Source: Sanyastnella coralliicola
Lineage (GTDB): Bacteria; Bacteroidota; Bacteroidia; Flavobacteriales_D; Sanyastnellaceae
Length of the DNA: 64,000 bases
Direction of reading: 5' to 3'
Assembly (NCBI RefSeq): GCF_030845195.1
Contig: NZ_CP132543.1
Coordinates: 1,939,501-2,003,500, forward strand
How positions within the stretch are numbered: position 1 is the stretch's first letter; every line of letters starts with the position of its first letter. A program made the translations under genes and the position numbers. The notes beneath the pieces are model-generated. The model did no database searches. It saw nothing but the letters and a program-made list of their open reading frames with translations, and was not told where the DNA came from. This document shows, piece by piece, positions 1 to 2,629 of this stretch.

Positions 1-1338
1 TATGTACTATTTGACTCAGACAGCCATGAAATTTCTGCTTCGGCTGAGGCAGGATTGCTTGATGCGTTAAGTCAATTGGCTTACATCCGAAGTCTCCGAA
101 TTGAGGCTCATACTGATGCCGATGGAAGCGACGCATACAATGAAGCGCTTGCTCAGCGCCGTTTGAATTCTGTGGAATCATTGCTCGCTGATAAGGGCTA
201 TACCGTAACGCAAAAAGGCGCACACGGTGAAGACTCTCCTATTGCTGATAATGAAACCGAAGATGGCAAACAACAAAACCGACGTGTCTTGGTTCGTTTT
301 GAAGGCGATCGAGAGTTGTTGACAATGGAAGACATCTATGAAGAGATGATGCCTAACATGCAATCCCATTGTATCGACAATACCAAAGACACCGTGCTCG
401 TCGCTAAATCGGGAACAGTAATGTTCATCCCAGCCTACAGCTTCAAAGTTGACAATCACGATGATTGTATCGAACTACGACTGCGAGAAGCGCTTGATCT
501 CACAGACATGATGACCATGAACATGCACACTGGTTCGGACGGAACTATGTTAGAATCAGGTGGAACTGTCTACCTAGAAGCGTATCTGAACGGAGAACGT
601 ATTTCTGGGGAACTCGAAAAAGACATGACTATCTACTTCCCAACCAATCGCACAGAAGACGACATGCTTGCCTTCTCATCGGAAGAAGGTGGTGATGAGA
701 TGAACTGGGTTCCAACCGGTGAGAGCTTTGAATTGATTCCATTGAAGTACATCAACGATTCCTTCAATGTTGAGTTTAAGAAGACTAACCGCATGCATTG
801 CCGTCTGTTCTTCTGTAAAATTCGACGTGCACTTCGACTCAGAGGGAAAGAATCAAACTCGACATACATCGAAACACGTTCATATGGAGATGGATATGTC
901 TTGGACAGTGCTTTCTATGATTACGACCAGAAGAAGATTGATGCTGCATATGCACTAGGAGAAAGAATGGCTAAACTAAACCGAGATGTGAGTGCCATGT
1001 ATGCAGGTAACGTCCGCAACATGCAATTCATCAACTGTGACCGCTTTCCCGAAACGCCGGTTAGTCCGGTAGAGGTCATCTGTGCAGCAGATGCTCCAGC
1101 CAATGTACGCGCGCTCGTTCCTAGTGTAAATGGAATGATGCAGGGTAACAACATGTTCGGAAATCCTACCTTCTTGTTGCCTTCCGATCGAAGAATAGTC
1201 TATGTCTCGATTATCATTCAAGACAATGAAAGCTATCTGGCCATTCAAGAAGCAAGTGAGGAACGAGAAATCAATCTCAACTACGAAAAGCTTACCCCCA
1301 CTCAAATTAAGTACAAGCTCAAAGGCTTAAAACTATAA
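1..1338 (+). CDS. OmpA-domain protein with a long C-terminal extension (5' truncated)
   Basis: The frame is open to the left window edge, so the start and any signal peptide lie outside. The first ~95 visible residues are the end of an OmpA C-terminal peptidoglycan-binding domain: it opens with YVLFDSDSHEIS, then has the EAHTDADGSDAYNEALAQRRL stretch (about residues 34-54) and an NRRVLVRFE close. The remaining ~350 residues are a second region that is not OmpA. It includes an IPAYSF segment, a REALDLTDMM segment and GGTVYLEAYLNGE, which resembles beta-sandwich modules common in large Bacteroidota envelope proteins. Inferred role: anchoring an envelope complex to peptidoglycan. The OmpA call is firm; the extension is unassigned. 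Confidence 0.8.
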   Translation, partial: YVLFDSDSHEISASAEAGLLDALSQLAYIRSLRIEAHTDADGSDAYNEALAQRRLNSVESLLADKGYTVTQKGAHGEDSPIADNETEDGKQQNRRVLVRFEGDRELLTMEDIYEEMMPNMQSHCIDNTKDTVLVAKSGTVMFIPAYSFKVDNHDDCIELRLREALDLTDMMTMNMHTGSDGTMLESGGTVYLEAYLNGERISGELEKDMTIYFPTNRTEDDMLAFSSEEGGDEMNWVPTGESFELIPLKYINDSFNVEFKKTNRMHCRLFFCKIRRALRLRGKESNSTYIETRSYGDGYVLDSAFYDYDQKKIDAAYALGERMAKLNRDVSAMYAGNVRNMQFINCDRFPETPVSPVEVICAADAPANVRALVPSVNGMMQGNNMFGNPTFLLPSDRRIVYVSIIIQDNESYLAIQEASEEREINLNYEKLTPTQIKYKLKGLKL

Positions 1339-1353
1339 AACTTGCCCTCCATC

Positions 1354-1472
1354 ATCCAGCTCGCTGGATAACCGACGAATAATTCGTCATCTCTCTCTCA
1401 ACGACGTTAAAGAACGTCACTCTCTCGATGATACCTCCGGGTATCAAGATCAGGCCGACTGTATAGTCGGCC
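1354..1472. repeat. Array of five consecutive perfect hairpins
   Basis: Five inverted repeats with unrelated stems follow each other: 1354-1369 (ATCCAGC/GCTGGAT), 1374-1388 (GACGAAT/ATTCGTC), 1403-1418 (GACGTT/AACGTC), 1430-1445 (GATACC/GGTATC) and 1453-1472 (GGCCGACT/AGTCGGCC). Spacers two and three are CTCTCTC-rich. The last hairpin is followed by TTTT and is an ordinary terminator. The other four have no T-run and are unexplained. Confidence 0.8.
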
Positions 1473-1476
1473 TTTT
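1453..1476 (+). terminator. Rho-independent terminator of the OmpA-domain gene
   Basis: A perfect 8-bp stem (GGCCGACT / AGTCGGCC) with a GTAT loop is followed directly by TTTT. It lies 115 bp after the upstream stop codon. Confidence 0.8.
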
Positions 1477-1484
1477 CATTTTAA

Positions 1485-1537
1485 ATTCTCATTCCAATTC
1501 TCATTCTAATTCTCATTCTCATTCTCATTCTCATTCT
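1485..1537. repeat. ATTCTC hexamer tandem repeat
   Basis: About eight near-identical copies of ATTCTC occupy the leader between the terminator and the GTG start at 1550. A short remnant of the same unit occurs at 13085-13100, also just upstream of a gene. Confidence 0.75.
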
Positions 1538-1549
1538 TACTTTTACCTC

Positions 1550-2629
1550 GTGTCATGGATCCGAAATCTATACCAGCGCTTTTACGCTTGGGGCCCTTCA
1601 TTTCTAGGTCTCCTCTCTATAGGAATTGCGATGCTTTTCAAGCCTGTTCCAACCGTCGCTGAAAGCCTTTATCGCAACACCATTTTTGCAGGATTTCGTT
1701 GGGTTCGAGACGCACTCTTCAACTGGATCCCTGTTCCATTGATGTTGATTATTCTGATCCTCCTTTTCATTTGGATAGCGATGGGATGGTATCGAAGACG
1801 GTTGTTCGGTTTTCGTCCGTGGTACCGCGGTATTCTGAACGCCTTCGGAATACTCATTACCTGGTTCTACGTGAGCTGGGGGTGGAATTACAGCGCTCCA
1901 GGGGTAGTAGACAAACTCAGCCTGAATCTCGATGGTTTTGATCGTGATGCTCGTCAAGAATTGATTCTCGCTAGCGCGGAACAGTGCCTTTATCTTGGTT
2001 CCTCATTGGATTCAGCACTCGTACTAAAAGAAAACGTCACCCTTCAAGAAGTCAACACTATTCACGCCGCTGTGCGGAATACACTACGTGACATGGGTGT
2101 GCGCACGCCTGGAAACGTCAAAATGAACCTCATCAGTGAAAGCGGTTGGATGCGAAAATGGGGAGTTGCAGGTATCTACATGCCTTTCTCCGGAGAAGCA
2201 CACGCCGATGCCTCCTACCTAGCTCTTCAAGAATGGTTCATCGTGGCCCACGAATTTGCCCATGGCTATGGCATCACCGATGAAGGTGAATGCAACTTCA
2301 TCGCCTTCGAGACATTACGAAACTCTGGCAACCAGGAACTAGAATATGCCGCTTGGTTCAATCTTTATGATGAACTAGTACCTACCTACGACAGCACTTT
2401 CATTGAGCTCTACCCCGCTCTTCACCAACACCAACTCGCGCTAAGACAGAATGCGCGATCGCACCGACAATATGCACCCAAGGTGGCTCAAGTTTCAAAT
2501 GATATTTATTTGAAGTCGCAAGGAGTAAAAAAAGGGGTAAGAAGTTATCGGGGGTGGATGGCAATGGTATACTCCCGGTTGGAGGGCGAAAGGGCAAAAA
2601 GGCTAAATGGCGAAAGGCGTAACAACTGA
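1550..2629 (+). CDS. DUF3810-family membrane zinc metallopeptidase-like protein
   Basis: A 359-residue protein with three N-terminal membrane segments (about residues 18-34, 60-80 and 94-111) and a large domain carrying a HEFAH motif at 234-238. The following DEGECNF (244-250) offers a glutamate as third zinc ligand. This matches DUF3810 proteins of Bacteroidota, which are HExxH membrane proteins of unknown substrate. The start is GTG; no ATG fits. The last ~15 residues are encoded by GGCGAAA/GGCTAAA repeat DNA like the intergenic minisatellites elsewhere here, so the native C-terminus may have been replaced or extended. A copy of the CGCTAGCGCGGAA motif lies inside the gene at 1969. Family call confident; peptidase activity inferred. 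Confidence 0.75.
   Translation: MSWIRNLYQRFYAWGPSFLGLLSIGIAMLFKPVPTVAESLYRNTIFAGFRWVRDALFNWIPVPLMLIILILLFIWIAMGWYRRRLFGFRPWYRGILNAFGILITWFYVSWGWNYSAPGVVDKLSLNLDGFDRDARQELILASAEQCLYLGSSLDSALVLKENVTLQEVNTIHAAVRNTLRDMGVRTPGNVKMNLISESGWMRKWGVAGIYMPFSGEAHADASYLALQEWFIVAHEFAHGYGITDEGECNFIAFETLRNSGNQELEYAAWFNLYDELVPTYDSTFIELYPALHQHQLALRQNARSHRQYAPKVAQVSNDIYLKSQGVKKGVRSYRGWMAMVYSRLEGERAKRLNGERRNN

Follow-up and report, generated by a model that had tools for sequence, protein, structure and literature searches.

What might a string of five hairpins do between two genes that would need only one to end a transcript? The question arises in Sanyastnella coralliicola (contig NZ_CP132543.1), downstream of an OmpA-domain protein gene and upstream of a DUF3810 gene. 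We examined the locus within a 64,000-nucleotide stretch of the contig (positions 1,939,501 to 2,003,500, hereafter the window, whose coordinates are used throughout), within a sample of stretches, the window included, that covers 1.26 Mb or 31% of the genome, and in related genomes.

Five hairpins, the last a terminator

The earlier note had reported five consecutive perfect inverted repeats between the two genes, and a mechanical search recovered all five with 100% complementary arms (Table 1). The array spans 1354-1473, between the OmpA-domain stop codon (1338) and the DUF3810 start (1550), with both genes on the + strand; its first hairpin begins 15 nt past the stop codon, on the coding strand. 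The complete OmpA-domain ORF encodes 485 aa and starts at about window position -119. A coding explanation for the intergenic region was considered, the DUF3810 frame being open from about 1331 and of comparable length in the sister species. It was rejected: an ordinary start codon is absent from this frame upstream of 1550, and G002, a relative of the same genus, has its GTG start at the corresponding place.

Table 1. Features of the array and its flanks (window coordinates).
Feature	Position	Strand	Inverted-repeat arms	Remarks
OmpA-domain protein gene, 3' part	1..1338	+		Pfam OmpA E 1e-11; ORF
HP1 ATCCAG-CTCG-CTGGAT	1354..1369	+	1354-1360/1363-1369	loop CGAG in sister species
HP2 GACGAA-TAA-TTCGTC	1374..1388	+	1374-1380/1382-1388	loop TCA in sister species
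unpaired linker ATCTCTCTCTCAAC	1389..1402	+		identical in both species
HP3 GACGTT-AAAG-AACGTC	1403..1418	+	1403-1408/1413-1418	GACG/CGTC ends common to HP2
unpaired linker ACTCTCTCGA	1419..1428	+		identical in both species
HP4 TGATACC-TCCG-GGTATCA	1429..1446	+	1429-1435/1440-1446	UNCG-type tetraloop closed by C-G
HP5, intrinsic terminator: 9-bp stem AGGCCGACT-GTAT-AGTCGGCCT, then TTTTCATTTT	1452..1483	+	1452-1460/1465-1473	dG -15.4 kcal/mol
79-nt G-free tract, ATTCTC hexamer repeats	1471..1549	+		6-nt indel and several substitutions between species
TACTTTTA, -7 box-like motif of DUF3810 gene	1538..1545	+		TAnnTTTG, 5/6
DUF3810 gene, GTG start	1550..2629	+		Pfam E 7e-44

As RNA, HP1 to HP5 have usable stems of 6, 6, 6, 7 and 9 bp, the last longer than the 6-8 bp first described, and loops of 4, 3, 4, 4 and 4 nt. 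Partition-function folding, proposed in the earlier note as a check, gives five separate hairpins with mean pair probabilities of 0.92-0.997, at least 0.92 in both species that carry the array. The minimum free energy of 1330-1500 is -47.8 kcal/mol, with a z-score of -6.9 against dinucleotide shuffles on the + strand and a weaker one (-4.3) on the - strand. HP1-HP4 are each weak, at -4.4 to -6.0 kcal/mol. HP5 has the form of an intrinsic terminator on the coding strand, a G+C-rich stem followed by the U-run UUUUCAUUUU, which exists on the + strand only; as had been suggested, it is the only ordinary terminator of the five.

The stems are not all unrelated, as had been claimed: HP2 and HP3 have GACG/CGTC ends in common, and each is followed by a CT run (CTCTCTC). 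Their best local alignment, CGTCA(T)CTCTCTC, matches at 12 of 13 positions, a score equalled in 117 of 5000 trials in which the linkers were kept and the stems permuted. Judged from their sequences, the two hairpins are perhaps a diverged duplication with later changes to both sides of the inner stem. The CTCTCTC linkers do follow HP2 and HP3, but the motif alone is no commoner in the window than expected (9 occurrences against 11.8).

The best promoter-like motif near the array is DUF3810's own box, which lies 3' of the terminator. TAnnTTTG is the -7 box consensus; no good -33 partner was found for TACTTTTA, nor any convincing Bacteroidota-type promoter motif at 1200-1350, in the roughly 140 nt leading up to the array. 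Standing in front of DUF3810, the perfect palindromes could also be sites at which a dimeric DNA-binding protein controls that gene. This is very unlikely, because five different sequences do not make a single site, the spacing is irregular (about 20-30 bp between centres) and the downstream promoter-like box stands 65 bp past the last palindrome, behind the terminator.

Base composition points to another possibility. The unpaired bases within 1339-1451 comprise 24 C and 6 G, and the tail at 1474-1549 is without any G, as it is in the sister species. C-rich, G-poor linkers and a 79-nt G-free tail could together load Rho, for which a gene is present, forming a composite terminator in which Rho backs up the intrinsic one and insulates the DUF3810 gene. 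We consider this improbable: the strong intrinsic terminator makes Rho unneeded, the unpaired linkers fall short of the usual length of a rut site, and (ATTCTC)n occurs at about ten other loci and also within coding sequence, so that the tail resembles a simple repeat that recurs in the genome. One recurrence falls in a coding linker, and a related form lies in a signal-peptide-like stretch. Examples of the repeat are at window 1486-1536, L139:3025-3066, L149:3405-3450 and L105:4724-4794 (- strand). At L149 and L105 the encoded products of these or related repeats are a Ser/Asn-rich lipoprotein-like linker and a stretch of Ser-Phe repeats that resembles a signal peptide.

Rarity of the array within the genome

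We compared the array with shuffled controls at several scales. The window holds one cluster of five hairpins, and 10 whole-window shuffles gave at most three per cluster; 444 kb of the S. coralliicola genome held a single five-hairpin site, against at most three hairpins in 130 nt, and never four, across 3.55 Mb of sequence shuffled in blocks. Shuffling 1339-1480 (142 nt) 20,000 times gave a maximum of three, compared with the five observed. No shuffled control therefore reached four hairpins, which upholds the earlier view that chance formation is unlikely. The 1.26 Mb sample contained no other group of five hairpins within 140 nt and two groups of four. Extra perfect hairpins within 120 nt upstream were counted at 61 terminator-like sites in the sampled genome: 39 had none, 20 had one and 1 had two. 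The array's terminator, with four, is the sole site of the 61 with more than two.

By whole-genome blastn the array occurs once. There is no exact second copy of any of the five hairpins in the 1.26 Mb, near copies (1-2 mismatches) are scarcely commoner than in reversed controls, and no genome-wide reuse of the CTCTCTC plus HP3 unit was found. The array does not show the many dispersed copies with shared sequence that characterize REP/BIME elements.

Perfect palindromes are nevertheless abundant in the genus, and the array might be debris of dispersed palindromic elements, a local pile-up or diverged tandem duplication (HP2 and HP3) that has no function beyond the terminator. In S. coralliicola, perfect hairpins with stems of at least 7 bp occur at 1.48 per kb in intergenic sequence, 3.6x the density in shuffles (0.41), and coding sequence has 0.43; in G002 the intergenic and shuffled figures are 3.9 and 0.15 per kb (26x), and the hairpins often form repeated families and tandem runs. 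This density and the HP2/HP3 similarity argue for debris. The array hairpins, however, are not among the repeated ones, of which GGATGGATGAAATCCATCC was found 8 times in the sampled S. coralliicola genome. The lack of exact copies, the near-control frequency of close ones, the uniqueness in the sample of five tiny-loop hairpins in 120 bp and a conservation above that of third codon positions (see below) all count against this origin, and we think it unlikely.

The dispersed intergenic palindromes of S. coralliicola come in repeated phrases, such as GGTGCATGAATGCACCGCTAAAGGACCG, CATCCCGTAGGGATG and GGATGGATGAAATCCATCC, at L147:19040-19310, L101:8490-8570 and L149:2310-2332. One intergenic region (L133:1747-1942) has four near-identical palindromes (GGGCACGCATGCGTGCCC and kin). 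In G002, L166 (1-1070, 4590-5644, 9685-10185) and L177 (12703-13744) carry tandem arrays whose ~60-bp units each contain a perfect palindrome, for example GGACGCCAGGATGGCGTCC; related palindromes there differ in their inner stems on both sides (GGACGGC..GCCGTCC, GGACGCG..CGCGTCC). These tandem arrays may be internal repeats of a coding sequence or else a large family of palindromic repeats.

Conservation in the sister species

Among 114 genomes of the family, blastn found the array in S. coralliicola and in the same-genus G001, a marine Flavobacteriales metagenome-assembled genome from station ALOHA, in which it lies between the same two genes. A covariance-model search returned the same two carriers and no others; of its weaker matches shown, four (L120-L122 and L124) are ordinary terminators and one (L123) lies inside a coding gene. 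The array was not found in phages, plasmids or viral contigs.

Over 1354-1476 the two species differ by five substitutions and no indel (96% identity, 4.1% divergence): two in the HP1 loop, one in the HP2 loop, one in a linker and one, T1429C, that breaks the outermost HP4 pair (C/A) in the sister species. Every other stem pair is intact, and all five hairpins are kept. Third codon positions of the surrounding genes differ by 14-30% (22% and 30% in the flanking genes), so the region appears constrained. The lower divergence of the array is significant against third positions of DUF3810 (p 8e-7) and of the last 60 OmpA-domain codons (p 7e-7). The last 26 of these codons have changed nearly as little as the array (2/26 third positions), and the conserved block may therefore begin inside the OmpA-domain gene; from the two sequences, part of the low divergence may reflect a local tract, through recombination or a slow region. 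Within the same gene, the C-terminal half (window 541-1260) is fast-evolving between the sister species, at about 25% of bases, compared with about 5% in 1-540 and 1261-1338.

The earlier note had gone further and proposed selection on structure rather than on sequence. The comparison does not bear this out: 1 of 68 paired and 4 of 55 unpaired bases have changed (p 0.17, not significant), and the CT linkers are fully conserved, as much as the stems. The stems themselves are identical in both carriers except for the one broken outer pair, and two such sequences offer no covariation to count. The tail past the terminator does differ between the species.

The OmpA-domain gene was sought in 60 relatives, and the array occurs only in the two genomes with this gene at full length. 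Loss of the array from relatives that keep the flanking genes, which would have counted against the earlier note's proposal, was not seen: the sole relative with both genes in full retains it. A further relative, G003, keeps the order of OmpA-like gene and DUF3810, with 30 bp between them and no array; it neither supports nor refutes the proposal, because its first gene has a different C-terminal part. At this locus (L059:942-1712), an ortholog of the OmpA-domain N-terminus is fused, directly before DUF3810, to an unrelated C-terminal part that by eye resembles a glycoside hydrolase family 3 fragment, through recombination or an assembly join.

The original observation is thus confirmed and statistically strong, its claim of selection on structure is unproven, and its interpretation is supported in part.

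A candidate 3' UTR and its known counterparts

Of the readings offered at the outset, a structured 3' UTR for the OmpA-domain mRNA is the best. The position and strand of the array, the form of its terminator, the lack of an upstream promoter motif and the conservation in one relative, above that of third positions, all point this way. We tentatively favour, at a little short of even confidence, an array that combines 3' UTR and terminator and whose extra hairpins are barriers to 3' exonucleases. Transcription would pass the OmpA-domain stop codon, form the four small hairpins in turn and end at the fifth, with its U-rich tail. The four extra hairpins, spaced by short single-stranded pyrimidine-rich linkers, would then serially block 3'-to-5' exonucleases, such as those of the PNPase and RNase R kind, and thereby prolong the lifetime of the mRNA. 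Two points tell against barriers: HP1-HP4 are individually weak for such a role, and the fully conserved CT linkers are not needed by the model.

A rival reading is that the mRNA is processed close to its stop codon and a small RNA of some 130 nt is freed from the 3' UTR. Its single-stranded CUCUCUC linkers would bind translation starts rich in purines (GAGAG), with the hairpins as scaffold and the terminator as 3' end. That the linkers are identical in both species and the tail after the terminator is not agrees with this, and Bacteroidota offer precedents in 3' UTR-derived small RNAs with a Rho-independent terminator (FopS-14, PMC11697453) and in the structured Rfp18, which regulates proteases in Flavobacterium (PMC9723704). 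Even so, the possibility is a minor one. The region before the array holds no promoter motif of the kind expected for an independent small-RNA gene, no Rfam family matches at the gathering cut-off (the best sub-threshold match, STnc70, reaches 24.9 of the 40 bits required, largely by virtue of the terminator), and no Hfq gene was found in the S. coralliicola genome, though Bacteroidota small RNAs can act without Hfq. Less probable still is a lineage-specific multi-hairpin regulatory RNA from the same 3' end, in a bacterium with no recognisable Hfq, whose repeated single-stranded CUCUCUC seeds between the hairpins would address several purine-rich translation starts at once.

Read as a 3' UTR with a terminator, the array is ordinary in kind and unusual in degree. 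Little has been learned about post-transcriptional control in marine Flavobacteriales, and an array of non-repetitive hairpins conserved above third positions would set serial weak hairpins against one strong terminator in a compact natural test, bearing on what sets mRNA life in bacteria without Hfq. Its current extent is one locus in two species.

A literature search found nothing on tandem hairpins in flavobacteria, and the closest counterparts are of four kinds. HP5 and its U-rich tail resemble any intrinsic terminator right after a gene on the coding strand, except that four further hairpins precede it. The REP/BIME stem-loops of enterobacterial 3' UTRs are also tandem hairpins after a gene and obstacles to 3' exonucleases, and RNase R has been tied to the decay of REP-type stem-loop RNAs (PMC2777011); REPs, however, are multicopy with a shared sequence, whereas the stems of the array differ from one another and have no further exact copies that we found. 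An RNA released from the array would, like FopS-14, end in the mRNA's own terminator, but FopS RNAs are about 65-70 nt long and have a single hairpin and one single-stranded seed at the 5' end (PMC11697453), in contrast to five hairpins in about 130 nt. Rfp18 (PMC9723704), a structured flavobacterial RNA, also has several stem-loops; the array region itself matches no Rfam family.
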